64,000 nucleotides of DNA, taken from NCBI GenBank assembly GCA_014871385.1, contig CM026422.1, positions 17,859,199 through 17,923,198 on the forward strand. Direction: 5' to 3'. This DNA is from Ceratodon purpureus (taxonomy: Eukaryota > Streptophyta > Bryopsida > Pseudoditrichales > Ditrichaceae). Positions 14,019 through 33,465 of this stretch are shown piece by piece; the stretch's first letter is position 1, and each line of letters opens with the position of its first letter. The position numbers and the translations under genes were made by a program. The notes under the pieces were generated by a model. It searched no databases. It was not told the origin of the DNA and saw nothing but the letters and a program-made list of their open reading frames with translations.

Positions 14019-14155
14019 ATCCAATAAGAGTAAGGTAGTGGATTAGAGTTGCAAGGCAACCAATGAAGGAGTTGTTGCCAAATACAAAGCTGGAGGTCTA
14101 AGTAAGAGGCCGAGCTAGATCACGCGGAAGCTGTGTAATAGAGGGATGGGCATGG

Positions 14156-14182
14156 AACACCATATTCGTTATTTTGGGAGAT
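14156..14182 (+). repeat. Left terminal inverted repeat of the 18-kb element
   Basis: 27 bp, begins AACACCATATTCG and ends TTTTGGGAGAT. Identical in inverted orientation to 32386-32412. Immediately outside is ATGG, repeated at the right end. A looser internal repeat of TTTTGGGA follows at about 14195. Confidence 0.9.
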
Positions 14183-14310
14183 ATTCTTGATTTTGGGAAA
14201 TCAGAGTGCAGAGAAATGGCGACATTCGTCATCTCCCATTTACTTCAATCTTGCGGAAATCAATATTGAATCATTAAAAACACCTTAAAGGAACAATGAG
14301 GCCCATGTCA

Positions 14311-15159
14311 TTTAGGTCGAGTGGACCTAAATGCACGAACATACAGGAGAAAACTTAGTAATGTTCATTGATTCATTAAAAACATGTTTAAATAGAGATG
14401 ATGATTAAGTCATTTAGGTCGATCACACCTAAACGCAATATAAACAAGGAAAAAGAATATACCACGTCCCTTGTAATTTTAGTAGTAACTATCCGTTACC
14501 TTTTCTAAACCAAGGTTTCAATAAAAGGCAATGTCCACTCACATAAATTACATTCGGAAATTTGAATAACACAAAAAGTGTGCAAGACAATGAGGCAAAA
14601 ATAGCAGACGAGAAAATTTGACAAATAGATCAATCGTTTTATTCAAAACATAATTACATTGAAATAACACAGAGGAGTCTTATAATCGTCTATATTGTCT
14701 GCGCCATTGCTATACAGTACATAGTATCCTCTATATGGTTATGGAGTCCCTCCGTAAGCCTCAATTCTTGACTTGACAAATTCCCGTTGGCGCTGACGTG
14801 TCCACGACATTCCCTCAACCTGCATCATTGGACTATCAAGAAGACGTTGCAACTTCTGCCTACGCCTGTCACCGATGCTTGACTCTGGCAGAGAGTGGCG
14901 ACGGGTACTGGATGGTTTAGAGTGGGAGTCGGCGGACTTCCTTGCCCTGGATCCAGTAGTTGTTGATCGCAGCCTCGGCATCTGCAAAGGGGATAAATTA
15001 GCATTGGGAAGAGATTTCGGTTTAGGTCGAATCGACCTAAACTGCTGAGTGCAATTGTAAAGGTCGAACGGACCTTGAACGAGGAGGCCTACATAAGCTA
15101 GAACTAGACCTAGACGAGAGTATAAGAAGATCAATCATTTTAGGTGGCCTCGAGCTAAA
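14311..15159. repeat. Left subterminal palindromes, GGTC variant
   Basis: Copies at 14311-14331, 14413-14433, 15021-15041 and 15139-15159, plus a partial copy at about 15061. The first three use arms TTTAGGTCGA / TCGACCTAAA with some mismatches, instead of the AGCTCGA form found further in. The 15139 copy is a hybrid, with an AGGT left arm and an AGCT right arm. Confidence 0.85.
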
Positions 15160-15568
15160 ATATGGACATCAGAATGAAACATCATGAAAGAAACTTACAA
15201 GAATGAAACATCAGAAAGGAATGAAGAGCGAATACTGAGGAATGAAAACCAACCTTTGCCGGTGGTGGTGACGGCATGTCCTCCACATTGTTATAAAGAG
15301 CACGCTTCGTAGGGGTAGAACTCTGTCGTTTTGGAGATAGAACATGCAGTACGGTCCGTGGCCACATAGGAGAAGGGGATTTCAGGGTCTTGGGAACGGA
15401 CAGGTTAACCGGGCTGTCCACAACCCCTTCGTCGACAGCCATAGTTGAATAGTCCATCGTGGACTGCGCTGTTGCAACGGATTGCAACAGAAGCCCTCTG
15501 CTACGTAGAGAGGGCCCGCAGCCATAAGCATAATTCAAAGAATCCACAGAGGCTCGACATGCATTATC
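14739..15568 (-). CDS. Small basic protein of the element, last two exons
   Basis: Exon 15568-15254 (acceptor TATTGCAG, donor AAAG|GTTGGT; 105 codons) joins exon 14981-14739 (acceptor TTTGCAG; stop TAA) in phase 0, giving about 185 residues. The first exon is Ser/Pro-rich; the second is strongly basic with an Arg/Gln-rich C-terminal stretch. No domain recognised. The connecting intron holds palindrome copies at 15021 and 15139 and a partial one at about 15061. The 5' exon or start codon was not found: it could be an upstream exon near 15.7 kb or a splice from the phosphatase exon (possible GTAGAC donor after PYL), so this may be the end of a longer transcript. Confidence 0.5.
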
Positions 15569-15798
15569 CTGCAATACACAAAGCGAATAGAAACATACAT
15601 CCACCAATAATTCAGCAATGGATAAGGGTTCGTCGCAAGGGGCAGAGTAGATCAAGAAAGAAATATGATCTTCGTATTACAAAAGGAGTAGTCTGGATAC
15701 AAAGATTACGCAAGTGGTTAAGATGTACAACATACTAATAGGTGCGCGGCAGTGATGAAATGTCTATTCACAAAGTAGAGAACCGGAACCATGCGAAA

Positions 15799-16965
15799 TT
15801 ATGGTCTACGACTAATTGCCTCATTAATCTTAGCGTATTGTTCACAGGTAGAACGGTCATCATAATACATTTTCTTCCCGATCGGACGCTCGGCCCTGAA
15901 TCTAGCGATTGTCCCCACATAGTGGTGTAGGTCTACAAGATATGGCAAAAGTTTCGACAACAAAAAACGATCATCTGCGGCATCGGGATTCTGGTTGTTC
16001 CAAGTGGAGAGTAGAAGGACATTGTAAGAATTATTCTGACAGTGCTTGATCGGGCTGTCGTCGATAAAAATGGTGTTGGCTTCGGAATATATGCCACCAA
16101 ATTTACGAAAGAGACCATCGGACATCGGCTTAAGGAAGATGTCCTTCTGAGTCCCGGGTTCCTTCATATATACCGGACGACCTCGAAAATCTACGCCCAT
16201 AGGAACTCTCTGACAGTCCTCTTGACCTAGAATTCTGAGCGGATAGACAGGACGAATCGGACCGAACAGATAGTCGCAGATCATTTTTGTCGTCGAAGTC
16301 TTCATCGAACTCCAGACGGTTATGGTTGCGAATGCTGACAACCGACGAAGGAAATCAGCGCAATTGGGCCTGACACAAACAAGCTTGGGGCCCACGACTG
16401 CTGGCTTGGACGCTGAGTGGATGCTAAGGTCATGGCTAACGAATGATTTTCCAGGCCAATTAGGAGTACTGGAGCATAGTATTCCATTAAGGTCGAGGAC
16501 AACGTTCAACCAACCACTCTGAGGTCTTGTCGGGACAGGACTCAATTCTTCACTAGAACTTACGTCACATCCAGATGCCTCGCGCACCTGGAGAGGAAAT
16601 ACCGATGACAGATGGACATTACTATATTATACTAGGACGGGGTTATACGAATGATACAATAAGGACAGTTGCAAGGCAAGTCATTCTCGAAGGAAATAGT
16701 GCAACGAGATATAATGATAGATGAAATACCTGAGCATCCTCGGCTTGGCCTTCTACAACATCCCGATCCTCCACAGGACCCATCGACCCTAATGAATTCT
16801 GAGGTTGATCGCTAGGAAAGACCTCTACGCACGTTGGCAAGGTCAGAGCGCACTGGGCCGTGACATCTAAATCCATATTTGTGCGTCCAGTCTCATCCGC
16901 AGTTTGGGCCATGACAACATCATCCACGATCCGAAGATCTTCCACTTCCTCATTCACTTCGTGAC
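15799..16965 (-). CDS. FCP1/NLI-type HAD phosphatase-like protein (element cargo)
   Basis: Exons 16965-16730 and 16587-15799 join in phase 0 (donor CTCAG|GTATTT, acceptor CTCTCCAG); stop TAA at 15799. The second exon carries an NLI/FCP1-like HAD domain: motif I LDLNGILC, motif II-like TVWSSMK, IFLKPMS, and the C-terminal NTIFIDDSP acidic motif. FCP1/SCP enzymes dephosphorylate proteins such as the RNA polymerase II CTD using DxDx(T/V); here the second Asp is Asn (DLN), as in a divergent plant group, so activity is uncertain. Gene start: an in-frame ATG lies at 16912 (MAQTADETG), or this is the 3' part of the upstream gene via a possible splice 17190-16965, which keeps frame. Confidence 0.72.
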
Positions 16966-17048
16966 CTGGGCATTGCAAGAGAACTATTGAATCATCAGAG
17001 AGTGATCAATGAAGCTGACATAGAAGGGATTGGTAAACAGTTGAACGG

Positions 17049-19788
17049 TTTAGCTCGGGTCGAGCTAAACAGCCCATTTGTATTAATTACAATCGTTTTG
17101 GTACAAAATGCACATTTCAGTGAACTACTCCGGTATTAACACCTCATCTACAAAATTCCGAGTTCAAAAAATCTAAGTTTGGGAGGGACCTGAAGATGTC
17201 TCGGGAGCATCTCCCTGAGTCTGATTGTGGGAGGGAGAACGGGGAGGACTGGGACTACGGTCACGCATGACCTGGTCGGTGGAATGATGGCTTGGCTCAG
17301 GCACTGATGCGGGACTCGGATCCGACTCTGGCAATTTTGCACCACCAGTAGGGGAGCCCAAAATCTCAAGTACTCGCGAAGTAGGCAGGGCACTACCTAT
17401 CGGCTGGACATTGGGCAAAACTGGACCCGCATTCGGGAAAAGAGTGGCACTACTCATGCCTTGCAGAACATTCTGCAGTGCCGCCTGCACGGTCTTCTCT
17501 ATATCCTTTTCCTGCTGTGCCATCCGATCTTGTAATGCTTGATTCCTATCCTTGGTCGCCTGCAATTCTGCGAGAATAGCTTGAATATCCGGATCGGGAG
17601 CGGCTCTTCCCAACGGGGAGGCTTGCCGAGCTGGAGGATTGACCCTCTTTTTCTTCTGAGCCGGCTTTCCAGTACTTCGCGCAGCGCCAGTCTTTCTCCC
17701 ACTTCCGGATCCCAGCTCCGGTGCAGAACCCGGTCTCTCATCGTCCGTACGTGTAATGTCGACGTCTGGAAACTCGAGTCTTCTCCCCACTCCACCCTCA
17801 GATGCTGTCTGACTTACCGGATCAGAAGGCGGAGCATCGCTCTCATTGCTAATGTCCGCAGCACTGGAGGAGGGGGTCTGTTCCTCAGTGGGGGCATCCT
17901 CCTCCAGATCAACATCATCACCCTCCTCCGCAGCTCTGCCTTTCCCTTTCCGCACGGCTCTGCCGTATTCCGGAAACCGTTCCTTATCGACAAAATAAGC
18001 GTCAACACTAAAATTGGTTGGGTCCAGAGTTAATCCAAGTGCCTGAGCTTCGACCATATGAGGAGAGTCACTATCATCCGCGACCACGAAAGACGAGATC
18101 GAGAGCATCTGAAGAAAACAAAGACAAGGTAAACACGGTTTAGCTCGACTCGAGCTAAAGTGTGGAAGTGTGTGCATACATGGTGCATGTGATCAAAACA
18201 GTGGAACGATTTAACTCGACTCGAGCTAAAGTGTGGAAACTTACCGCGGCGGCTATGAGGGACTTCGTTCCCGCATAGAGCTGATAAACCGCCACCCCAG
18301 TACTGCAGAAAGTGTCGAGGACCTGCAGGTAGAACTCCATCCTTAACTCGGATGGATACATTGCGTACCTCCTTTCGTTGAACTTCCTGTTGTCCTTGTA
18401 CAGTGGGTGGTCCGGAGTTCTGTACTCGCTCAGAGGTTCTGGCGTTGACACTTCGTTCTCAAGTAAATTATCATCAATGAGAAACAGGAGTTTGACGGGT
18501 TCCATCGCGATTCTGCTCTTTGGGGGGTGTCCGCCGAGTCGCTCGTTAGGAGCGGGTAAATACTCTGAATGGACTCTTCTGCGACCACTCAAGGTGTTTC
18601 GCTCCACCCAAGTGAGCACCTGGGCGAAGTCCTCATCGTCTCTGCAAATGAGAAGCCAGTGCCGAACATCGTTAAACTGGGGCTGCCCATACTCTTCGAT
18701 CATATTGAAAAACTCCATGAAGAAGGGGTTCTCCAAAGTGTAGTTCTGCCTCGTCTTGTAGGTTGGGAGGAACCGGAAGTCGATGATTCCGAATGTGAGT
18801 GCGCCGCCCGCCAACCTCCATATATCGGAGGGCCAAGATCCGAAGGCGAGTCGAGGCTCCCTGATGAATGGGAGGAACCACATCTCAGCTGAAGGACACT
18901 TAAACGCATGTCGAACCTTCAGGAAGGTTTTAAAGAACTCAACCGCATATGGGGAGAGATCCTTGGCCGACTTGTTGCGGAACTGTGTAGCTCTGGAGTT
19001 AGTCCAGTACGAGTCTGGAATACCCCAATCAAGCAGAACGTGCTTCGACTCCTTAGAGACAAAGTAAGTCTTCTTGAACTGCTTCCAAGCGGGTACATCA
19101 AGGCCGTCTCTCTTGAATAAATGGAGCGTTGGATTAATGTTGTTGAACTCCGCTTGAGCTACAGCCTTACGTTTTCTCCGCTCCGCCCACTCCTTGACCG
19201 AGTAGCAGTCCTCCAATACACTCGTATTCTGCTTGATGGTCACCTTCGGATATGTGTACTTTCGACTTGGCCCAGACTTATGCAGGATGTGCTTACACAT
19301 CTTCTGGTGATCTGCCTCTGTCAAGTTCCCGAGCCATTTGAAGAACTCCCTCGGAAGCGTCCCATCCTTGTCCGGAACGAACCCCTTCCTCTCATAGAAC
19401 TTCTTATGCGGAGGTTCGCTGTCGGGATCAATGAGTCCACCACATGCCGCAGACGCGATCACCTCCTTCCACAGGTCCCATGTTTCATCACTGGATGTGA
19501 TGATAAAAAGCTCGTTTGTTAGGGAGATAGTGTTCTTCCCTCCCTTCTTCGCCACCATGGCTTGATGCTTCGCCACATCGATCATAGCGAAGCGCTCCCT
19601 GATAGCATTCAGAAAGTTCTGCATATGCACAGGAAGAATCCTTAGATGATGCTGTCTCGGAACTACTGTTTAGCTCGACTCGAGCTAAATTGATCGAGAT
19701 ATACCAGAATATTGAAAACGAAAAAGTCTATCAATATTTAGCTCGACTCGAGCTAAACTGCAGGAAGTTTAGCTCGAGTCGAGCTAAA
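17049..19788. repeat. Intronic copies of the 21-bp palindrome
   Basis: Palindrome copies (arms TTTAGCTCGA / TCGAGCTAAA, one central base) start at 17049, 18139, 18210, 19669, 19737 and 19768. All lie between the inferred exons of the leftward unit (one in 17172-16966, two in the 18244-18109 intron, three in the 19818-19619 intron), never inside them. The 18210 copy has one arm change (TTTAACTCGA). Confidence 0.9.
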
Positions 19789-21258
19789 CTGCTAATGCTA
19801 ATGAATCAATGAACTTACGTCGTATGTCTTCGACGCTGGATTACTTTTCGGACCTGTACTCCTGCGGTCCGCAGCACCAGCGGCAGCATTTTTCTTCTGG
19901 GGCTTACCATACCTCTCCCACACTTTTCTAGCGGCAAGTATATTGCTCGCCCAAGTTGGCTTGAATGGTGCGAGATGGTTCACCCGATTATAGAATGCTG
20001 AGATTTTTCGCAGCTTATCATGATCCTTCGTCCAGACGATGTACGCATCCCACCTCCTGAAGTCCCTCAACAACTCCTCACTGGCGTTATCCTCGATGAG
20101 AGATTTGGACGCCGCCACGCTGTGTTGCCCGTTGATGATGTGGAATTCACAGCCTTCCAGATCCGATTCTTGTTGAGGTCGTGCCTTTGTGTCTGGCATC
20201 AGACACAGGGTTTGCTTTTGACCCCTATCAGGCATGTTGACCAGGTAATTCTTCATCTCCTCCATGCCCCTCTTTTCATATGCACGGATAGTCCATGCGG
20301 CCGGTGCGGGCTTGCACCGCGTCACGTCCACACTGAACTTCTTTGGTTGCCCATTCGTTTTGAAGACGAACTCGTCCTGGCAATCAGAAAAGAAATTCTG
20401 GTAAATGCGATTGGCGTTGTCGAAGTCCAGGATCTCTCCAGCCTTGTTCACCTTGGGGAGTTCCCCGAGAACAGAGTTCAAACTTGTTGCCAAGTCCTCT
20501 GCAGATAAGAGCAAGTCCTTCTTGGGCTTTGGCTTGTCAGTTTTCTTCTCGAGTCCTTTCTTCTTCAATGGTGAGTGGGGCGTGGGAGTTGCAGAAGCGC
20601 CTCGGCTTTGGGATGGAACTATCGCTCTCCCCCTACTGCGTCCTGTCTGTTGGCTCCCCATTTGACTCCCGGTTGCTGTCACTCCAGAGACGTCAACTTG
20701 AGATTTTCCGAGGTTCTGCTTCACCTTTGCCTCCGTTGCGCGGAGAGCAAGGGTGCAGACAACATTCCTCAGTTTCCACGCTAGGGATTTCGCCCCGAGA
20801 GTTCGTCCATCCTTTGTTGCCCATTTCTTGTCCAGTATTTCTTGTCTCATCGTGGAGACTATCTCCTCGAAAGGTGAATTGGACAAACTTTCCATTAAGG
20901 AAATGGGGTCGAAGAGGTTCTCCGCTACGTCTACTACTATGGAGAAGAGGTATGGATTAGCCCCGGTAGATGAGCAGAGGATCTTGATTTGGTCTTTCCC
21001 TTATTGTCACACTCGGTGACCTTTGTATCCATATCGATGACCTCGGGATCATCGACTTCTCCCTTGAAAATGGTTGCGAAGGTAAGATATGGGGTGTATG
21101 CAACCCATCGCAGAGTCCAATGTTTGACCTTCGTGGGGTCTTTGAAGGTCCACGGCTCGTATGTGCTTGAGTCATCCCCGTCATTGTCATCTGAATCAGA
21201 TATAGGAACAGGCTTGAAGAAATGTCGTAGCGCCTCAGTTACCCTTGCTCTCTCCTCA
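17173..21258 (-). CDS. Large element protein with DGQHR/ParB-like motif, frame-broken
   Basis: Exons: 21258-19819, 19618-18245 (458 codons), 18108-17173 (stop TAG). Junctions are phase 0 (GAC|GTAAGT to ATGCAG; GCG|GTAAGT to CTTCAG). About 1,250 aa. The first exon carries IINGQHSVAASK followed about 40 residues later by KISAFYNRVNH. This resembles the DGQHR/ParB-like arrangement (dGQHR...F..iN), with Ser for Arg, so DNA binding is only a hypothesis. The middle exon is unrecognised, with aromatic-rich conserved-looking stretches. The last exon is acidic and Pro/Ser-rich with a short coiled coil (about ELQATKDRNQALQDRM). The first exon changes frame between about 21000 and 20937 (frameshift or missed short intron). 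A 5' exon must lie upstream, since 21258 follows an acceptor TCCTTGCAG. Confidence 0.6.
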
Positions 21259-21300
21259 CTGCAAGGAGGACACATTTACCATTAGACAAATTCAAAGCCA

Positions 21301-21989
21301 TTTAGCTCGATTCGAGCTAAATGTTGATACTATTAATCAAGTAACCGATTGCATCCCAGCAGTTTAGCTCGAGTCGAGCTAAACTGCTTGGGCTTTCAGC
21401 ATGGGAGCCTTGCAGTTTAGCTCGACTCAAGCTAAACTGCAAGGGGATCATGCGGGGCATCCTAGCAGTTTAGCTCGAGTCGAGCTAAACTGCAAGGGGA
21501 TCATTGAGGCAGTTGAGAAAATTTAGCTCGACTCGAGCTAAATTGCTCAACGCCCACCATGATCCCCTTGCAGTTTAGCTCGGCTCGAGCTAAACTGCCA
21601 GGACTTTAGAAGGGAGAACTTACAGTTTAGCTCGACTCGAGCTAAACTGTAGGTTTCTCTTCTAGGAAATTAGGGGAGTCACACCTCTAGTTTAGCTCGA
21701 CTCGAGCTAAACTCTAAGGTGCTCCGCAGTTTAGCTCGAGTCGAGCTAAACTGCAGAGCTCCCACAGTTCACAACTTACAGATTAGCTGTAAGTTCAGTA
21801 CTGTGAGAGCTCTGCAGTTTAGCTCGACTCGAGCTAAACTGCAAAGCTCCTTACAGTTTAGCTCGAGTCGAGCTAAACTGCAAGGCTGTATAACAGAATT
21901 TTTCTCGTTTAAATGTGTCAAAATTATTGTTTTTATTCAGTTTTTGTACTTTTTTTTGGAAGCTGCAGTTTAGCTCGACTCGAGCTAAA
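21301..21989. repeat. Left palindrome array: 12 copies in 689 bp
   Basis: Copies start at 21301, 21363, 21416, 21469, 21522, 21574, 21626, 21691, 21730, 21818, 21857 and 21969; most extend to 29 bp by GCAG/CTGC flanks. The spacers are themselves inverted around individual copies: around 21532 the left spacer GCAAGGGGATCAT recurs inverted as ATGATCCCCTTGC; around 21636 TAGAAGGGAGAA faces TTCTCTTCTA; around about 21788 ACTTACAG faces CTGTAAGT. The array lies just upstream of the first identified exon of the leftward gene, probably in its first intron. Confidence 0.9.
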
Positions 21990-23400
21990 TTGTTGACGTT
22001 CTATATGGAGATTTATACAAAATTGGCATTTGGTTTGTTACCTCTCTGCCATTTCTTGATGGATTTATTCAATTTCTGGAAGGAATGTCTTGTCAAATTT
22101 GTTCTTCCTGCAAAAAAGAATCATGGTTGCAGAGGATCAGAACATACATCTATAATTAAAATGTTGTAGAATTGTGCCGAAAAATATGGGTGAATAGTAC
22201 AAATGAACTTGGATTCCATATGTACAGTTCCTATAATAAGCTAATGGGATCTAATAAGCATACGGTGAAACATGTGAATGTGAGCATTGGCGCCAAATTG
22301 TACCCAATTCAGAAAAAGATGTGATTAAACATAACTTCAACTACAACACAAACTACATCTGAATGCAGTCACCTCATCCATAAAACCTATAAATTTCTTC
22401 ACACAGCAATGACACTCATGCAGAAACAGTCGTAACACAGATTCAAATTCACTTGAAATGCATGCACTCTGATTCCAAAACATATAACACGAGAATTCCT
22501 ATCTAAACCTAGCAATTACAGTCAAGCATCGAAGAAACACAGGATTCAAACACAAATAGACACACCCAGAATACAAACACAAGACAGAAGTCGACCACAG
22601 ACAGACACACACATATCACCTAAACAATACGAACACAAACAGACACACACAACTCAGAATTCGTTAAAAAAATTACAGGATGCTTATCCTAAACTAGCGA
22701 GAACATGCCAAGGATTCATAATGGAAAGAGAAAATAAACTAAAAAGCTCAATTGAGAAGACCCTAAATCGCAAAAGTCACTGCAATTGAACTGAAAGAAG
22801 AGGAAACCTGTAAAGCGATATGCTACGCACCTGAAAATTAGCGCAGCAGCTTTTTCAAGGCCTCCAGAAACCCCAATCCAAATCGCACGCCTCCACAGAG
22901 CACCGAAGAAGTTCGCAGAAGAATAGAAGTATCGAAATAAACCTAAACCCTAAAGACGGAGGAAGAACCCAGCACAAGAACACGGAAAAGAGAATTGGGA
23001 AACAAATGCAGACCGCAGCGCCAAACACCTGGAACTCCCTCCGCGCACGAACACTTCAAACCATCAAGAGAAAACCTAAACCCTAGAGACCAACACTACT
23101 TCAAACAAACAACTCACACCCCTTGGAGGAAGCAAACGGAATAGAGGACGCCCCCAAAACTCGCGCGAAACACACTGTAGTGCACATTCTCTCACGGAAT
23201 TCACTCCCGCCACCACCCAAAAACAAGCACAGACACAGACACACACAGAGAAACGAAGGAGCAAACACCTTCGTGGACGAGGTCGCGGTGGGGATTAGTT
23301 CCTCCCCCTCGCACGGGCCCGTGACCGCGCCGCCAAATCGCGTGGCCCCGTCACCGCGGGGTTCAATCCCCCGTCCCCGTGGGATGAAATGAATTTCTTT
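21990..23400. promoter_or_regulatory. Probable 5' region of the leftward unit
   Basis: No long ORF. 22540-22650 is rich in ACACAGACACAC repeats. 22800-23400 has many CCTAAACCCTA-like and GC-rich short stretches and ends in a GC-rich block (23275-23390) before the sequence turns AT-rich. Since the exon at 21258 begins at an acceptor and needs a 5' exon, the start of the leftward transcript most likely lies here. No TATA box or start codon is assigned. Confidence 0.35.
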
Positions 23401-24179
23401 TTTATATATACCTAGAAATTTAAACCTCTACCCTAACGAATACTTTTTCGAATTGATCAAATTCTAAAACGGAACTTAATTTTTTTCACTCTTTTATATA
23501 ATTCCAAAAATACAATCCTCATTTTATGGATTCAAATTAATCCTCTTACATCTATGATCATGATTGTTGTAGTATTAACATATGATAATGTGTAATGGTC
23601 TAGACACTTGTGCAAGCATACAATCTAAGTACTAGGAAAATTATTAACAATTTCTAGGGAATTGAAATTTCTATATTTATTCATGAGAAGCAAATAATTA
23701 AAATTGCGTACAAATTTATTACTTCCCAATAAGGTGCAAATATACAACTTTCGTTAAATATTCATGAGAAGCAAATATTTTCGTACAAATTTGCTTCTAA
23801 TTTGAAACTAATAAATTTGTATTTTTATTATATATTCATATGAAGCAAATATTTTATTTTTATTAAATATACATGCGAAGCAAATATTTGTACAAATTTA
23901 TTACTTTATAACAAGAAAGTATAATATTTGGTTCCTGCATCTCTTTTAAAAAAATTAATATTAATTGAATATGAGACGTCTACAAATTTAATTAACATAA
24001 TAATCCTAATTAACATAATAATCATTTCAGATATATGAAATTAATATTTGTTCAAAGACAAATTTAATTTTAATACACAATATTGGAGTTTAAATAATAG
24101 TTTGCAAATATATTGCAAAAGCATCAAATATGAAAACACTATAAGCAATGAAAATTAATTTACTATACTCTAATTGGAA

Positions 24180-26790
24180 ACATATTTACATAAATGTTGT
24201 CATCATATTCTTAAAGTACATGTTAGTATCATAATTTATTTATAATATAATAATATAGTATAGTTTACTAAGATACTAATATATTCATTTACAATTTTAT
24301 AATTAATTAATGATAATAATACTAGAATTATAATCTATATTCAAATCTATATACAAATCTAAAAATGATAGATAAGTATATTCATGGTATGCCTTGTATG
24401 ATCAGCATTTTTAAAATAATAATAACTATAATACTATTAATGATTTAATAGTATTATAGTTATCATTAATAGTATTATAGTTATCATTAATAGTATTATA
24501 CTATAAATGCTTTAATAGTATTATAGTTATCATTAATAGTATTATAGTTATTGATAATAATGGAATGCCTTGTATGATTAGCATTTAATGATAATAATAC
24601 TTCAATTTTATATATAATTAGTATTTTTAACAATGTACTTCATATATATGCCTTGTATGATTAGCATGTATATTACAATAGTTTTAATCAATTCTTTCAC
24701 GTTCTACCTTGACTAATATTTTTACAATTTTATTACATTCTAATAAGAGAGTGGAATGCTTGCTTCATTTGCATAATTTAAAAATACAGAATTCATAATT
24801 CATAGATTCAAACGAAATTTACTACTACATTTACTAGTTAGCATGGACATATAAGAATACGAAATACACAAATATGAAAGCATCAAATGAAACACTGGTT
24901 TTCGTCTAGAAGAGCCCTGTTTTGAAGGCATTCCATTCCAAAAATAGTTTACAATCCACACGGGGAATACCAGCAGCAAAAGTTACCAAAAGATGAAAGT
25001 CATATCTTTTCACATCTATGGTTTCCAAATATTGTATAATCTAACGGTTGTGCTAACTACTCCTGGAGTCCCCATTCCATATCTGAGGTGTTTAGCAGCA
25101 AAAAGTAAAATCGTAGAAGTATATGGAAGATGCCTGCGAGTTCTGGAGAAAAGATAAAAACAGGATCAGATGGTATGATGTTTACGGTTCAAAACGGAAA
25201 AGTGCATGTCAAAAGCAAGGACTCATCCTCCTAACAATCAGAACGAACACAGCATGAGCTACTACAATGCTGCGCACCACATACAGCAAACGCAATCTAT
25301 TATTATGAAAACATCAAACTGAGGACAAGGTTAAGGGTTCCGAGGAGATAACAATTCACCTACTCATTCATGTGGTGGGCTCTCCAAATCCACGCTCCCC
25401 TCCTCATTAGAATCAGACCTCCCCAGAGGTGAGGGGAAAATCGATGTTAGAAGCGGTCATAATCGCCACTAGCTCTAGAGTATGTGCAAGAGTCCAATCC
25501 CACTCCGCACCAGGCTGCATTACGCGTGCAATGTAGTTCCATGGGGGAATCTCTACGCCGCGACCACGGGCGCGTTCCACCGCCATAAACCACGGACGAA
25601 CCTCCTCCACTCCTTGTGGCCAAACAACCGGCTGCCACTCATCCTCATTAGAATCAGCCATGGAGAAGCCCTCGTTGGAGGTGAGGGGGAAATCGATGTT
25701 GGAAGCGTTCATAATCTCCACTTGCTCTAGACCATGTGCAATAGTCCAATCCCACTCCACACCAGGCTGCATTTGGCGTGCAATGAGGTTCCACGGAGGA
25801 ATCTCTACGCCGCGACCACGGGCGCGTTCCACCGCTATAAACCATGGACGAAGCTCCTCCACTCCCTGTGGGAAAACAACCGGCTCCCACTCGTCTGGCG
25901 AGTAACTTGACACCCTAAAACCACCGCCCGCCCTCCTCATCACGGCAAATGAACTAGAAGCAGATGAAACAAAAGGGAAACTAAGAATGAAATTACTGTT
26001 TCGTCGCCCTAAGGAACTTATGCTTATGAAGCGGCATTGGGGGAAGCCGAATGTTCCAGAGTAACGAAGGGGACTTTGACTAGACTCGGTAACGGGACTT
26101 TGACCGATGTGGGCTTTTGAAAGTCCGGATTTACTGAAATGTGTCATTTTACTCTATTATTAAAGAATTGATTAATGGGATTGTATGCTTAGACAAGCAT
26201 CTAGAGCCTCTCTCGACATTATATATTAATACTATAATTATAATTATGATCATTGGTTTAATACGTTTCATTTGAATCCATAATTTATGAGTTATTTTTT
26301 TTAAAATGAATGAACCAAACATTCCACTTTCTTATTAGAATGTAATAAAATTGTACAAATAGAAGTCAAGGTACAACATTAATGAATTGATTAAGGTTTG
26401 TGTAATTTCCATGCCAATCATACAAGGCATACCATGGTTTAAATATTCGCTTCTCATGAATATATATAAAAAACCATAAACCTTTTAAAAAATATAAAGA
26501 ATTTGCCATAATATATGAATTGATTTCTATAATCAAATACTATTATTTTTAACAATGTACTTCGTATATATACTTGAATATATTTGTATATCATTTTTAG
26601 ATTTGTATATACTTGAATATAGATTATTATTCTCATATTATAATCAATAATTAATTCTAAAATTGTAAATGAATATATTAGAGCCTTAGTATACTATACT
26701 ATATTATAATATTATAATTAAATTATGATACTATCATCTACTTTAAGAATATTAGGCTTACATTTAGGTCAACGTATTTTCACCCCATGC
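24180..26790. repeat. AT-rich large inverted repeat flanking a small ORF
   Basis: The left arm (about 24180-24845) and right arm (about 26250-26790) match in inverted orientation with moderate divergence. For example, 24730-24755 (TTATTACATTCTAATAAGAG) is the complement of about 26325-26350, the GTAAATGAATATATTAG motif on the right (26665) faces CTAATATATTCATTTAC on the left (about 24275), and GATACTAT/ATAGTATC-type ends match further out. The core between the arms is about 1.4 kb and contains the repeat ORF. On the right, a ~200-bp section (26400-26620) is repeated directly at 26783-27000. 24427-24553 is a tandem AATAGTATTATAGTTATC repeat. Confidence 0.75.
25413..26147 (-). CDS. 244-aa protein with two tandem ~85-residue repeats, unknown
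   Basis: ATG at 26147, TGA at 25413. After a Ser-rich N-terminal ~75 residues come two copies of the same unit: each starts DEW(E/Q)PVV.PQGVEE, continues RPWF.AVERARGRG and IPPWN, and ends with MQPG.EWDW and NIDFPLT. The copies also match at DNA level, so the duplication is fairly recent. A second possible start (MRRAGGG) lies at about 25938. No domain recognised. It sits at the centre of the AT-rich inverted repeat inside the 18-kb element and is much more GC-rich than its flanks, so it is plausibly a real cargo gene or an inserted unit. Confidence 0.55.
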   Translation of the reverse strand: MTHFSKSGLSKAHIGQSPVTESSQSPLRYSGTFGFPQCRFISISSLGRRNSNFILSFPFVSSASSSFAVMRRAGGGFRVSSYSPDEWEPVVFPQGVEELRPWFIAVERARGRGVEIPPWNLIARQMQPGVEWDWTIAHGLEQVEIMNASNIDFPLTSNEGFSMADSNEDEWQPVVWPQGVEEVRPWFMAVERARGRGVEIPPWNYIARVMQPGAEWDWTLAHTLELVAIMTASNIDFPLTSGEV

Positions 26791-27473
26791 CAATCATACA
26801 AGGCATACCATGGTTTAAATATTTGCTTTTCATGATTAAATATAAAAAATTCAATCTTCTAAAAAACGTATATAATTTGCCATGAGAAATGAATTAAATT
26901 CTATAATCTAATACTATTATTTTTAACAATGTATTTCGTATATACTTGAATATACTTGTATATCATTTTAAGATTTGTATACATTAGATTTTAGTTAATT
27001 ATTCTCGTACTATTCTTAAGTGGACATTAAATTGTTAATAAATATATTAGTACCTACTTGTAAATGAATATATAATTATATTATATATATTATAATCCTA
27101 ACATGTATATTAAAAATATACATGTTAAGATGTAGAGTTCCAAAAATGAAAGAACAAATCTACACCATTCACGGCGTAAAGAACACATTATGAAATAAAT
27201 AGAGACATAAATAAAAGTACATGAATATATATACATGATAATTATATCTGACTAAATTTATAGAATAAATCAATGTTTCTAAATTTGATTTCATATATCA
27301 TATATAATAATGAAATTGAGCAAAAATACATATTTAGTAAATGGAGGTATGAATATTTGCAACGATATACTTCCCTGTATCAACCAGACTCACGAATTTC
27401 AATTAGGTTCAAACAATTTTCGATTTAATTTTATTCCATGTACGACATATTTAATGTCCCTAAAAATGCCTTA

Positions 27474-27560
27474 ACCCTAATACCCTAAACCCTTGACCCT
27501 GGACCTAAGACCCTAAACCCTTAACCCTGAACCCTATACCCTAAACCCTGAACCCTGATA
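27474..27560 (-). repeat. Degenerate interstitial telomere-like repeats
   Basis: About 87 bp of CCCTAAACCCT/CCCTGAACCC variants, the complement of the plant TTTAGGG telomere repeat with many substitutions. It lies in the probable promoter region of the transposase gene and could be an interstitial telomere relic or a telo-box-rich promoter element, which is common in plant promoters. Confidence 0.6.
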
Positions 27561-28153
27561 GAGGAAGAAAAGTTCGCGGCCAAAAGTCAACACTCTATCT
27601 GGCGCTATAGGGACTTCCAACCCATCCCATTTGATTAAATGCACCAAATATTTCGCATCTGCATCTATCTAAAGGGCCGAGAAGTGTGGAAAGTGGTAAT
27701 TCCCGCGCTTTCTCACACCCCGAAATGTGGAGGGTCGAATGGTCATGCATGATTCCCGCCTATTTTCAAAACTGAAGCGGCATGAAAACGGTCACACGTT
27801 AGAGAATGACCTGTGGAATCGTCCCCGGTCGAAGTCTTTTCTCTACTCACTTGCTTCTCTCGCTTGTAGGAGCTCTCGGCGCTCACTTGGAGGTTGTTGT
27901 TTTCTGGGCGGAAGCTGTATTGCGCCGTTTCTGTTGTACGTCTTCTCTTTAGTTTTCTCCGATCATCAGTACACTTCATTGATATCTGCTTGTTGTATGC
28001 TTTCTATTGATTCAAGTCATGGTGTATTTGCAGTGTCTCTCTTTCCTTCTTACAGACGTTTTAGAGCGGACACCGTAAGCGTACTCTGAGTCTGCGACTC
28101 AGAATTCCGAAGATGGAAGCACCTATTAAAGCGCCGCTTTTTGCGAACGGCAG
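27561..28153 (+). promoter_or_regulatory. Probable promoter and 5' leader of the transposase gene
   Basis: Relatively GC-rich compared with the AT-rich left flank. Short frames only. The transposase ATG at 28604 follows a good acceptor (TGCATTTCAG, ending at 28599), so at least one leader exon should lie upstream, most likely in this segment. An ATG at about 28113 (GAAGATGGAAGCACC) could start a short upstream coding exon, but no donor was fixed. Confidence 0.35.
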
Positions 28154-28504
28154 TTTAGCTCGAGTCGAGCTAAACTGCTGCATCCAAAGAGCATCATGAG
28201 TTTAGCTCGACTCGAGCTAAACTCGTGTTGCCCTTTGGATACAGATGTTTAGCTCGACTCGAGCTAAACTACCGCACCCAAAGGGCGGAAGAAGTTTAGC
28301 TCGAGTCGAGCTAAACTTCTGGCGCCCTATGGGTGCGGTAGTTTAGCTCAAGTCGAGCTAAACATCTGTATCCAAAGGGCAACACGAGTTTAGCTCGAGT
28401 CGAGCTAAACTTCTGCATCGAAAGGGCAGCAGCAGTTTAGCTCGACTCGAGCTAAACTCATGCTTCTCATTGTCCAGGATCAGTTTAGCTCGACTCGAGC
28501 TAAA
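28154..28504. repeat. Right palindrome array: 8 copies in 351 bp
   Basis: Copies start at 28154, 28201, 28248, 28295, 28342, 28389, 28436 and 28484, with near-constant 47-48 bp spacing. The block 28201-28409 is itself one near-perfect palindrome of about 209 bp centred at 28305: spacers CCCTTTGGATACAGAT and CCGCACCCAAAGGGC on the left recur inverted on the right, with only a few mismatches. The array precedes the acceptor before the transposase start, so it is probably in the first intron or leader. Confidence 0.92.
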
Positions 28505-28603
28505 CTGCGCCTGGGATATGTTTCCCTACAAATTTAGAGATTAATTCTCTTTAAGGAGTATAATATGTTCTAACAGAATTGGTTCTGTTGCATTTCAGGT
28601 ACA

Positions 28604-31441
28604 ATGGACTATGTCTCAGATGACGAGGTTCCCGTTGAAGTGCCCGTAAACCCAGACCTTCCAGACTTCGTGGTTGTACCCTCAAGACAATGGCAGAACA
28701 AGACTGTAACAATATATAGTGACGACAATATCCCGTTAGCAGAAGGTTTGATCCGGAACCCACGGTCCAGCTTGGTATCTGACACGGTTGGTCCCCTTGG
28801 TGATTCCGTTGTCGTCGTCCAGGTATCAAGTTCTTTGGTCGAAGAAGAGTCAGAGGATGATTGGAGGTACTCCTTCAAAACGTGGCCTATCAGCCACGTC
28901 TATCTGGATGGAGTTAGCCTAGAGCACCATAGTCAACGTGATGTGTATAACCGTTGGGTTGCGGAGCGTAACCGATCCCTGGGAGATCGTACCCGATCGT
29001 ATGATAACTCCTCTAGGAATACCCCCCCTCCTATATCACGTCACGCTGAGTTTCTGATGACCCAGCCATCTATCAACTCTGTAGCGGCAAACACGTGCTG
29101 CGCTCACCTATGCGTCCAACACTATCCCAGAGATAAAATCTCTAGTCTACGGTCGCGTATGTACGACAAGACCACAGTGCAGTTCCGTAACCACATAAAA
29201 CTCGACGTGCATAGACAGATCCACAAGAATTCAGCGGGGAGGAGTGTAGTGACTCTGGAGGGCATAGATGTTTGCCCCTTCGCCTGGATGAAGATTATGG
29301 GAGTGAGCTCCAGTACATTCTATAGAAATGCCCAGTATGCTGCTGCTGGTTTCGAGGCTCAATTTCACGGTAATACTGGTTTATGTAAACCTCGAAATCA
29401 CACAGTCGTAGCAACTGCCGTCCTAGGGGCCATCCTGGACAGGCATGCCGACCACATGCCCCACAAGAGTCGTGTTCTGCCTTCAGGGGAGACAGTTGTA
29501 GCTAAAGTTCTGCCTTCCAGTTTCAAATGGAAGGAACAGATTCCCATCCTCGATGAGCATTTAGCGGACTGCGGATTGCCTCCTATGTCCGCTTCTAACT
29601 TGAGCAAGATCAGGAGGCTTAGCTATCGAGAATATTACGCCAAACGGGCAGGAGACAACTTTGCTCGTTGCTCAAAATGTGATGAGTTCCAGTCCCAGAA
29701 GAAGTTGACGGTTACAGGATCTCAGGCGTCCCTGTTGTGGTCTAAGAAAATGAGGCTGCACAATGACTCTGCAATGGCACATAGGGACTTGTACTACCTA
29801 AATCGATTCAGGTCGAAGGCTACTCCGCATGAAGTTCTTACTATTATGCATGACAAGATGGACCACTCGAAGACGGCGTCGCCGGCCTTATCCCACAAGG
29901 TCAAACACTTAGACGGTCTCATGAAGCTTCCTCTCGCTGTCACGGGAATGCTTGCTCATGGGCATGTGGACCAACGTTACGCCCATTATGGCCTTGACAT
30001 TTACTCACACGACGCTAATTACACGGTTGGATCGTTTGCGAAGCTCCTTCAGGACCTTGAGTCACCCCCTAAATCCACCTCTAGGGAACTCTTTCAAGAG
30101 AATCCTTCCCACCCATTGTATGCCGCGCTTTTGCATGGTTCAGAGATGTGTTTGGATCCTCTTGGCCCTCCTCCTGAGGTTCCTGTTGCTGCTAAACCCT
30201 TGCCTCCCATTCTTAACGTCCAAATGGATAACGCTGTCAGTGATAACAAGAATAGGTTTGTATTTTCATTCTGGTCCCTATTAGTCGCGAAGCGGGTGTT
30301 TCGCGAAGTGTACGTGAATTTCATGCTGGTCGGCCATACTCATGACGATATTGATGCCCTTTTCGGGCGATGGAGCATGGCTTTGCGGAGGGAGGACTTC
30401 CCCACAGTACCTCTCCTCATGAAGTCCTTCATGAAACATGAAGTAGTACCAACAATTCCGCATCTTATTCAGGAGGTCCCAGATTTCAAGGAATTCATCG
30501 CGGAGTGGATGCTTGATGGCGACGATACGTTAATGGGTCACACTAAAGCTCATCAGTTCAAATTCTATGTAGATTCTTCAGGATGCCCAGTCATGAAGTA
30601 TAAAATCTTCTGTCACGACGACGACTGGTTGCCAAAAGGAGATGGTTGTGGCATCAAGTTGTGGAAGGAGGATTCAAAAGGTCGATCTTTATGGCCCCGT
30701 GGTGTTCCTGGTGCCGTGGCGCCTCGCGAGATGCGGCACCTGCCTGATGTGATTAAGGGCTTGTCGGGTTTTGTAGATCATTGGGAGAGGCTATCTTCGG
30801 ATTCAGTCGAGTCCAGAAGAATCTATGAGCCACTCTCATACTATTGGAACGATGTTAAACAGGCTCTTTCCATTCCCTTTGATGTTGTCCCCGCCTTGGA
30901 GCATGGTTTTTGGCCATCCACGCGGCTCGCTCACTCCGTCGAAGACGAGTTTCAGGAAGATGGAACTTTGCGCGAGGAGTTCGCAGAGGATGATCACTTT
31001 GTTGGTCACAAACGAGATCGCCCAGGACCGTCGTTCCGTGTTGCGCGAGACCTTTTTGCAGGGTACTTCTTAGCATTACGACCCTGCGATGAAGACGATC
31101 GTCCTTTTTGGCTTGCGCGGGCCTTGACTGACCCTAATTCGAACCCTGACCTCCCAAACACGCTCCAAGTAGAGTTCTACCGCCCAATTTCCCGAGATGA
31201 AAATGTTTTGAAATTCTATACCGGCTGGGATGTGGATGGGAGACTTCGTTGGACAGTTGAGAAGGATGTACCCGAGTCGTGGCAGAGTACTGATGCAGTC
31301 ATAACAGCTTGGAAATCCAAAGTTAAAAAAAATATCAACGACCGGGGCGTTGGCAAGGATCCAACGCTGAAGATCCCACTGAAACAACTGGACATTATAA
31401 AGGCCTCCTTGGAGAGATTTGTGTCTCCGGATTCTGAATAA
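28604..31441 (+). CDS. DUF7869-like putative DDE transposase of the 18-kb element
   Basis: 945 aa, ATG 5 bp after a splice acceptor (TGCATTTCAG), TAA at 31441, no internal intron. The N-terminal ~150 residues are acidic. A cysteine/histidine stretch CCAHLC...HYPRD comes near residue 165, a VCPFAWMKIMGVSSSTFYR segment of helix-turn-helix type near 225, and CSKC near 360. Acidic candidates for a RNase H-fold DDE core follow: MHDKMD (about 416), QMDNAVSDNKNR (about 540) and VGHTHDDIDALF (about 576). The last two are the hallmark of DUF7869 proteins. The C-terminal ~130 residues (PFWLARAL... YTGWDVDG) resemble a small beta-rich chromatin-reader-like module. As the only transposase-like gene between the TIRs, it is the probable mobiliser. 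Whether DUF7869 is catalytic is inferred. Confidence 0.8.
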   Translation: MDYVSDDEVPVEVPVNPDLPDFVVVPSRQWQNKTVTIYSDDNIPLAEGLIRNPRSSLVSDTVGPLGDSVVVVQVSSSLVEEESEDDWRYSFKTWPISHVYLDGVSLEHHSQRDVYNRWVAERNRSLGDRTRSYDNSSRNTPPPISRHAEFLMTQPSINSVAANTCCAHLCVQHYPRDKISSLRSRMYDKTTVQFRNHIKLDVHRQIHKNSAGRSVVTLEGIDVCPFAWMKIMGVSSSTFYRNAQYAAAGFEAQFHGNTGLCKPRNHTVVATAVLGAILDRHADHMPHKSRVLPSGETVVAKVLPSSFKWKEQIPILDEHLADCGLPPMSASNLSKIRRLSYREYYAKRAGDNFARCSKCDEFQSQKKLTVTGSQASLLWSKKMRLHNDSAMAHRDLYYLNRFRSKATPHEVLTIMHDKMDHSKTASPALSHKVKHLDGLMKLPLAVTGMLAHGHVDQRYAHYGLDIYSHDANYTVGSFAKLLQDLESPPKSTSRELFQENPSHPLYAALLHGSEMCLDPLGPPPEVPVAAKPLPPILNVQMDNAVSDNKNRFVFSFWSLLVAKRVFREVYVNFMLVGHTHDDIDALFGRWSMALRREDFPTVPLLMKSFMKHEVVPTIPHLIQEVPDFKEFIAEWMLDGDDTLMGHTKAHQFKFYVDSSGCPVMKYKIFCHDDDWLPKGDGCGIKLWKEDSKGRSLWPRGVPGAVAPREMRHLPDVIKGLSGFVDHWERLSSDSVESRRIYEPLSYYWNDVKQALSIPFDVVPALEHGFWPSTRLAHSVEDEFQEDGTLREEFAEDDHFVGHKRDRPGPSFRVARDLFAGYFLALRPCDEDDRPFWLARALTDPNSNPDLPNTLQVEFYRPISRDENVLKFYTGWDVDGRLRWTVEKDVPESWQSTDAVITAWKSKVKKNINDRGVGKDPTLKIPLKQLDIIKASLERFVSPDSE

Positions 31442-32385
31442 ACATGTAGCTTTGAAGTTGGTGGTCTTGAAGTTCTGAATTTAGTCAGATCCCTTATATT
31501 CGTTTGAAGACGACTGAACTGAATACTGTTCGTCCTTCTGTTTTCAAGACAAAGGTAGATGTTTAGCTCGAGTCGACCTGATCAGTTATAGCGTATTAGT
31601 TCTAGCGTATTTATGTTTTGAATACTAGATAATTACATATATTTAATTGGAGGGAACACTACTTAAGTGTTTCTGTCCATTCCTTATTTATCATGTGTAC
31701 CACATTATAGACCGCAGTTTAGGTCGAGGCGACCTAAACTGCATTTGGCGTTGAAGTTCGTACTTTACGAGTGCGGGATACCAACAGGTCACCTATAGTT
31801 CTTAGTGTAGCTTTTTACTTAGTACCCTAAAGCGTTGATTCTATATCATATGTACTGCCACATAACAGCCATTTAGGTCGAGGCGACCTAAACGACATCT
31901 AGCGTTGAAGTTCCTAGTTTGGATCTCTGAAGTAGAGCCGATAACATACATTTGTTGGCATGGGACTATTATGAAGTCCGTATGTTCTTGGATTGCATAT
32001 CATACTCCGGAAACTGTAGGCAGCTATGTTAGTCGAACAACTTGATTGTTTGTACAGGTCTGAAAGAGCCTGTCACGGATTCAACATTTAAGGAGTGTCG
32101 ACCTAATTTGTATTTCCACACATATATATAATATAAGATTTCCCGGCATATCCGTTGTGTCCATTTCTTGTTATTTGTTTGATGTTCATTTAGGGTGGTT
32201 CGACCTACCTTGTATTTTTTCAAGTATTTCTAGTAAACCACTACCTTCTTTCATTTCCCATTAGTACTGTGTGATCATGTCCCAAATTAATGGAAATTGC
32301 TTATAAGCTTTTCCTTGTCAAGTATGGGACCATTGTGCCCATTTTAACTCGACCTGACCTAATGCATTATTTTGGGAGATGATAA
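31442..32385. other. Right subterminal region with GGTC-type palindromes
   Basis: No gene. Palindromes of the GGTC form lie at 31718-31738 and 31872-31892 (arms TTTAGGTCGA / CGACCTAAA); a hybrid half-copy lies at 31562 (AGCTCGAGTCGACCT). Weak copies are seen near 32196 and 32344. At 32368-32400, TTATTTTGGGAGAT and its complement form a subterminal hairpin that includes part of the right TIR. Confidence 0.8.
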
Positions 32386-32412
32386 ATCTCCCAAAATAAC
32401 GAATATGGTGTT
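32386..32412 (-). repeat. Right terminal inverted repeat of the 18-kb element
   Basis: Exact inverted copy of 14156-14182, followed by ATGG at 32413-32416. The same 14-bp TTATTTTGGGAGAT motif occurs again just inside in opposite orientation, so this end can fold on itself; the left end has only a degraded version. Confidence 0.9.
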
Positions 32413-32486
32413 ATGGATGTTGGAAATTGATAGACATGGGGTTTTGGAAGGACTGTTAGTAGATTGTTAGTAGGAGAGACTTGGTC

Positions 32487-33465
32487 TACAGTCATGTACA
32501 GCTCATTTACGAATTCTTGCATTCACAGGGTAAAAAAAGCTTCATTGCTGCCAACTTTGCCGCCGTCCCAAGAGCTCAAATACTGGCATTTTACCATGAA
32601 AGTTTTACCACAACATCATTTTTAAGTTTATAACATGTGTACCATATTTCAAGGCCATAAGATCTATACAAAAAAAGATATTCAAAATCTACCAACATGT
32701 GTAGCTAAGAAAAAACAATTCAATACTACCAACTTTGACACCGTCCCAAAGATTGGGAAAACAGAGTTTGGCCATGAAAATTTTAGCACGAGATCATCTC
32801 TATGGTGTGGAAAATTTCAAGTTTGAAAGATTTGACCACAAAGAGATATTTGAAATCTACCAATTGACAAGTGTTTTTTTGAAAATTTTCACAACTATAC
32901 ACGTTGGTAGATTTTGAATATTGTTTTTTGTTTGAATCTTTTGAACTTGAAATTTGTCACACATATTATCAACATAAATGTTATATCATGCCAACATTTT
33001 CATGGTAAAAATAAAAAAATTTCAACCCTGGGGAGGGTGTTGAAGTGGGCAATAGTGAAATTGTTTTTTTCAAAAAAACACTTGTCAATTGGTAGATTTC
33101 AAATATCTCTTTGTGGTCAAATCTTTCAAACTTGAAATTTTCCACACCATAGAGATGATCTCGTGCTAAAATTTTCATGGCCAAACTCTGTTTTCCCAAT
33201 CTTTGGGACGGTGTCAAAGTTGGTAGTATTGAATTGTTTTTTCTTAGCTACACATGTTGGTAGATTTTGAATATCTTTTTTTGTATAGATCTTATGGCCT
33301 TGAAATTTGGTACACGTGTTATAAACTTAAAAATGATGTTGTGGTAAAACTTTCATGGTAAAATACCAGTATTTGAGCTCTTGGGACGGCGGCAAAGTTG
33401 GCAGCAATGAAGCTTTTTTTACCCTGTGAATGCAAGAATTCGTAAATGAGCTGTACATGACTGTA
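32487..33465. repeat. 979-bp hairpin with 399-bp near-identical arms
   Basis: Left arm 32487-32885, right arm 33067-33465, spacer 181 bp. The arms align without any gap (paired coordinates sum to 65952 throughout) and show only a few mismatches. The spacer contains diverged versions of arm motifs such as GGTAGATTTTGAATAT and GAACTTGAAATTTG, so the arms and spacer derive from a common module. No TIR-type transposon ends or coding found. Transcribed, it would give a long dsRNA suited to siRNA production. It begins 71 bp outside the TSD of the 18-kb element. Confidence 0.9.

Follow-up and report, generated by a model that had tools for sequence, protein, structure and literature searches.

Why should a plant DNA transposon of the cut-and-paste type carry several genes, and why should one short palindrome be repeated throughout its non-coding parts? 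These questions are raised by a locus of the moss Ceratodon purpureus (GenBank assembly GCA_014871385.1, contig CM026422.1, forward-strand positions 17,859,199 to 17,923,198). The whole stretch of 64,000 nucleotides is called the window here, and positions are counted from its first letter. An earlier note, made from the letters of the window alone, had proposed a complete transposon with several genes at 14152..32416. Its borders were placed correctly, and the element proved to be multicopy, with terminal inverted repeats (TIRs) and a target-site duplication (TSD) that could be verified. We interpret it as probably a multigene Sola-like transposon with a self-encoded palindrome-binding system, resembling VANC anti-silencing or the loading of ParB/KorB, and give this interpretation, in which an element protein would bind the palindromes, a probability of roughly 0.6.

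Borders, copies and superfamily

The TIRs, 27 bp long (AACACCATATTCGTTATTTTGGGAGAT at 14156..14182 on the + strand and its counterpart at 32386..32412 on the − strand), are equal at 27/27 positions and thus perfect, as the earlier note had stated. They are bordered by the ATGG duplication at 14152..14155 and 32413..32416. In the 362-Mb genome, a search for the TIR 27-mer that tolerated one mismatch gave 163 forward and 159 reverse sites, while the reversed pattern gave 0 + 0. The pair is therefore not due to chance, the sequence is not confined to this locus, and a single insertion or an artefact is ruled out. Copy numbers count TIR ends. Among 100 of the 322 ends, all of them perfect matches, 31 adjacent inward pairs span at least 17,562 bp, 23 of them at 17.6–19.9 kb and eight at 26–39 kb, the latter presumably with nested insertions inside; 38 ends had no partner among the 100. 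The 301-bp left end showed 99–100% identity at all 40 scored places (the best 40 of 186 candidates). Half of these (20/40) lie on G000:C6, a contig of 110 Mb that makes up ~30% of the assembly and is probably the V sex chromosome.

The earlier note had asked for the TSD length, the cargo set, full copies and empty sites to be compared across copies. The TSD was exact at 4 bp, and never 5 bp, in 20/20 further copies with varying target sequences; in a separate set of four copies with both ends, three TSDs were exact and one agreed at 3/4 bases. Ten fetched copies contained the left gene unit in 10/10 and the transposase in 8/10 cases. The two copies in which no transposase was found are on C5, exceed the fetched stretch and contain segments that are 79–80% identical or unmatched; otherwise, the identity of long segments among the fetched copies was mostly 95–99%. 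Full copies were thus recovered, and the evidence from empty sites is weak and comes from another copy than that of the window: the joined flanks of the copy at C3:24096702 aligned to window positions 6931-7212 with 69% identity across the junction and with gaps near it. This part of the window (6931-7212) is a repeat that resembles the sequence at which that copy is inserted. Judged by its sequence, 14156-32412 is a complete DNA transposon of ~18 kb, of cut-and-paste type and with cargo genes, and its family is a recently active, multicopy one with well over a hundred close copies.

The earlier note assigned no superfamily; by published description, and not by the protein sequences of Sola1-3, the element most likely belongs to Sola or a Sola-like group. 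Sola elements are described as having 4-bp TSDs and a DDD transposase, as exceeding 15 kb in some cases, and as present in the moss Physcomitrella (PMC10741241). The 4-bp TSD (20/20 copies), the DDD triad (D417, D542 and D584, in 39 aligned proteins and the structure model), the size range and the moss host agree with this description. The passages on Sola in that source mention no palindrome arrays, no ParB/Srx-fold gene and no phosphatase gene, whereas the first and, by prediction, the other two occur in the present element. KDZ/Zisupton was ruled out, as the TSD is 4 bp here and 7 or 8 bp would be required (8 bp in Zisupton and the named Dileera family, 7 bp in Kyakuja; PMC12730594). EnSpm/CACTA, for which the same source gives CAC termini and a 3-bp TSD, is ruled out by the AACACC termini and the 4-bp TSD. 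Ginger elements have TGTNR termini and TIRs of about 40–270 bp (Ginger1) or 50–180 bp (Ginger2; PMC2836005) and were ruled out by the AACACC termini and the 27-bp TIR, although the 4-bp TSD length alone would agree. Listings of open-licence literature on Ceratodon transposons, new moss superfamilies and ParB-like proteins together with transposons contained nothing recognizable as this element.

Genes of the element

The rightward gene (28604..31441, + strand) is a single open reading frame (ORF) of 945 amino acids. It had been called a DUF7869-like transposase, and it matched PF25273 (DUF7869) with an E value of 2e-42. D417, D542 and D584 are invariant across the 39 aligned proteins. In the predicted structure, which has an integrase-like RNase H core, strands 1 and 4 terminate in D417 and D542, and the helix after strand 5 begins with D584. 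The model supports an assignment of the DUF7869 protein as an RNase H-fold DDE/D transposase; the third catalytic aspartate would be one of D581, D582 and D584. Of 1759 candidate copies, the 47 best of the family were scored, and the frame was free of stops in 35 of them. At E 1, the phage collection contained no match to the transposase, and no paper on DUF7869 was found in the open-licence literature. Proteins now filed as DUF7869 would gain a likely function.

The multi-exon leftward unit of the earlier note, here called L1 (− strand), was confirmed: three ORFs can be spliced in frame across two GT-AG introns, giving 1128 codons plus a stop. These are exon 2 (19819..20985, upstream limit approximate), exon 3 (18245..19618, a conserved region with 79 homologous proteins) and exon 4 (17173..18108, terminating in the stop). 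The introns between them lie at 19619..19818, with three palindromes (19669, 19737, 19768), and at 18109..18244, with two (18139, 18210). A first modelled exon is placed approximately at 20986..21257; in this stretch a length change sets the window copy apart from 10/10 other copies compared. For exon 2, a ParB/Srx fold, with the features of the ParB N-domain, is supported by a fold model; the fold-match lists speak only for the protein parts covered, beyond which other folds are possible. In Pfam no family scored above the cut-off for L1, exon 3 and homologues included, and NCBIfam gave a weak DGQHR match in one of the 32 members of the L1 alignment (E 0.0085). Two homologues of L1 parts (P0119 and P0202) carry the names of uncultured cyanobacteria from metagenomes and are taken for putatively mis-binned moss DNA.

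The phosphatase-like gene that had also been predicted (15799..16587, − strand) matched the NIF family of HAD phosphatases (PF03031, E 1.1e-13) and contains the motif DLNG. Sequence searches of the PDB with this ORF, with L1 exons 2 and 3 and with the transposase returned nothing credible. Pooled pN/pS values, calculated for the window copy against ten others, were lowest in L1 exon 2 (0.15), followed by exon 3 (0.21), the phosphatase-like gene (0.32), exon 4 (0.35) and the transposase (0.51). Two small ORFs on the − strand, of 157 amino acids (15182..15655, 0.51) and 131 amino acids (14739..15134, 0.80), are uncertain gene parts and stand outside the exon count used below; the L1 first-exon stretch reached 0.92 and the stretch before the phosphatase-like gene 1.2.

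Palindromes in the element and in related families

The palindrome is a 21-mer, TTTAGCTCGA-N-TCGAGCTAAA, with a layout of 10+1+10 and an end variant, TTTAGGTCGA-N-TCGACCTAAA. Allowing up to three mismatches, 33 sites were found in the element and zero elsewhere in the 64-kb window. None of the 33 overlaps the modelled exons (transposase, L1 exons 1-4 and NIF), which occupy 40% of the element; one (15021) lies inside the uncertain 131-amino-acid ORF. The stretch from 17049 to 28504 holds most sites (26/33), which occupy promoters and introns there: one palindrome separates the two leftward genes (17049..17069), an array of 12 stands immediately upstream of L1 (21301..21989), and an array of eight with a period of 47 immediately upstream of the transposase (28154..28504). 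The latter has 5 to 12 units in the eight other copies with the array in the fetched stretch. The left subterminal palindromes (14311, 14413, 15021 and 15139, spanning 14311..15159) are mostly of the end type, as are two of those in the right subterminal region (31562, 31718 and 31872, spanning 31562..31892). The palindrome system noticed earlier is thus real and in excess of chance: general 19-bp palindromes number 40 in the element versus a shuffle mean of 2.2, and six in each flank versus shuffle means of 1.7 and 3.8. These shuffle-compared counts are unfiltered, while the consensus sets for P0015 and B3 are motif-filtered; in the "A-internal" set (A being the window family) 26/36 palindromes are the motif.

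The same genome contains related families, with transposases that are 51–55% identical to that of the window where measured. In four of them, B1, B2 and B3 (names of this analysis) and the locus C3:53134, the transposase is preceded by an array whose half-sites differ from those of the window family, namely TTCAACTCGA (C3:53134), TTATCCTCGA (B3), YTTAGCTCAC (B1) and TTTAGCTCAY (B2). The layout with one central base is constant across families and a CTC core is common to their palindromes, while both halves change together, with exceptions in B1 and B2. The ends of B1 and B3 start with AACACCATATTC, as does the window TIR, so that the first 12 bases are common. AACACCATATTCRTTA occurs 334 + 344 times in the genome against 0 for the control, and the TSD was exact at 4 bp in 5/5 related-end pairs checked.

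In B3, the one related family in which the layout of the gene unit was read, L1 exons (31% identical) and the phosphatase-like gene (37% identical, E 1e-35, at the corresponding place and with the same DLNG motif) follow in the order and on the strand seen in the window. The B3 palindrome is located before L1 and between L1 exons. The cargo is therefore present not only across close copies but also in a diverged family.

Several further observations concern these relatives. A derivative of 163 bp with the common ends (G000:C3:17005276-17005438) is flanked by TTTA and TAGA, which is not an exact 4-bp repeat; its existence shows that the wider group does include short forms. Next to the C3:53134 relative lies an ORF (C3:56850-57746, − strand; L073:8851-9747) that contains a GNHR stretch and, by eye, looks like another ParB/Srx-type protein. 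In other sequence records, proteins whose prediction runs through the splice donor terminate in residues consistent with a translated palindrome (LAR-x-ELN, FSS-x-RAK or near variants) in 15/48 homologues of exon 2 and 9/79 of exon 3, and one of 83 transposases starts in this way, all three counts being without a chance control.

Possible roles of the palindromes, and minor features

A site that is palindromic, repeated, absent from the modelled exons and family-specific yet nearly symmetric would be the trace of a co-evolving dimeric DNA-binding protein. We regard L1 as the best candidate for this binder, since the character of the site suggests a dimeric protein, the layout is like that of VANC, and ParB-type proteins bind palindromes, parS and NBS being palindromic. 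VANDALs, the elements that encode VANC, are Mutator-like. In Arabidopsis, VANC of VANDAL elements is described as binding short motifs in non-coding DNA (introns, intergenic and terminal parts) and as undoing methylation; its motifs form tandem arrays and differ between related elements (PMC5735166). The moss element has in common with it the non-coding placement (0/33 sites in modelled exons), the tandem arrays, the family-specific motifs (other half-sites in four families) and a dedicated gene other than the transposase. The VANC21 motif, YAGTATTAY, is given in that account without mention of a palindrome, in contrast to the palindromic sites here, and L1, for which a ParB/Srx fold is predicted and Pfam gives no family above cut-off, is likened to VANC by layout and not by protein relation. 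ParB, Noc and KorB, with their sites parS, NBS and OB, have palindromic sites and the fold predicted for the exon-2 domain of L1. They differ from the moss element in that its protein has no GERRxR motif, its site is 21 bp long and its host is a eukaryotic transposon. The KorB operator, TTTAGC(C/G)GCTAAA (PMC2680271), has its outer six bases in common with TTTAGCTCGA-N-TCGAGCTAAA, a curiosity that may be coincidence.

In the mechanism that we propose, the transposase would cut at the TIRs and insert the element at target cuts staggered by 4 bp. The L1 protein, with its ParB/Srx-fold domain and exon-3 region, would as a dimer recognize the palindromes of its own family in promoters, introns and subterminal regions and would accumulate on the element, whose expression would thereby be maintained in the face of host silencing or be autoregulated. 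A chromatin or transcription partner located there may be the target of the phosphatase-like protein, and the family-specific half-sites would confine the effect to related copies, as with VANC and VANDAL. A more far-reaching form, which we offer tentatively and at less than even odds, is that a ParB-like coating protein loads at parS-like arrays in promoters and introns, spreads over the 18 kb and marks the element for expression against silencing; such a coat would perhaps also pair the distant ends, and protein and site would co-diverge between families. If a palindrome-binding system of this kind is real, plant transposons would offer, in addition to VANC, a further example of dedicated, sequence-specific handling of an element's own chromatin, here based on a fold familiar from bacterial partition and plasmid regulation. 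One genome houses several families whose sites differ, and for two of these the matching protein has been read; together they would provide a ready set for studying the evolution of specificity.

A number of results weigh against the proposed mechanism. GERRxR is the phosphate motif of ParB/KorB CTP clamps (PMC11790492); as it is absent from L1, with GQHS in the window protein and GQHS, GQHN, GEHS and similar stretches in relatives (alignment of 32), it is doubtful that L1 forms a canonical CTP clamp. TTTAGCTC is common to the window family, B1 and B2, whose sites therefore diverge chiefly at the two inner bases; moreover, the innermost pair is often non-complementary in B2, and the outermost base is asymmetric in B1. 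Cargo was sought in two diverged families and was found in B3 but not in C3:53134, a single-copy relative with transposase and palindromes in which no L1 or phosphatase homologue was detected at E 0.01 in 20 kb; this would fit the transposase as the palindrome binder. HAD enzymes usually carry DxDx, and the NIF protein has Asn where the second catalytic Asp is usual. Finally, the pN/pS values are not independent, because the window copy is common to all pairs.

The C3:53134 locus makes the transposase the main rival binder. The palindromes could be bound by it, or by L1 in the role of a helper in transposition, to achieve end synapsis and self-repression without any anti-silencing; the subterminal repeats of Spm/CACTA, where an element protein binds many short sites (the TnpA repeats), serve these two purposes. 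The distinct variant of the end-proximal palindromes (TTTAGGTCGA) and the array of another variant between transposase and right end in B1 are consistent with this explanation, as is the retention of transposase and array at C3:53134 with L1 undetected. However, 26/33 palindromes are far from the ends (17049-28504), in promoters and introns, and the lowest pN/pS is that of L1 exon 2, so that we consider such a role rather unlikely. It is improbable that the element is an ordinary Sola transposon with host passenger genes and with palindromes that are functionless, satellite-like repeats. NIF genes do occur in plant hosts, and the C3:53134 relative has no detected cargo. Size and TSD are also within the published Sola range, which includes some elements over 15 kb (PMC10741241). 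Against passengers stand the same gene set, order and strand in a family at 31–37% identity and the purifying selection on the cargo genes indicated by pN/pS, which also led us to reject random host-gene capture; the palindromes, for their part, differ between families in both halves and are absent from modelled exons. A role as RNA, with intronic and promoter hairpins that feed or decoy small-RNA silencing, seems hardly credible: the complementary arms of 10 bp and the inverted arrays, whose 106-nt arms are 96% complementary, would suit it, but a one-base loop is impossible in an RNA hairpin without loss of pairs, and the 10+1+10 layout and the CTC core across families resemble a protein site.

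Three minor features lie in or beside the element. Degenerate telomere-like CCCTAAA repeats are present at 27469-27557, within its AT-rich middle. A 244-amino-acid ORF (25413-26147), which has one stop in 7/9 other copies compared, holds a tandem duplication of two 229-nt copies, 252 nt apart and 88% alike. Just beyond the right end, an inverted repeat of 399 nt (32487-32885 and 33067-33465, 99% complementary, 181-nt spacing) is probably another foldback element.
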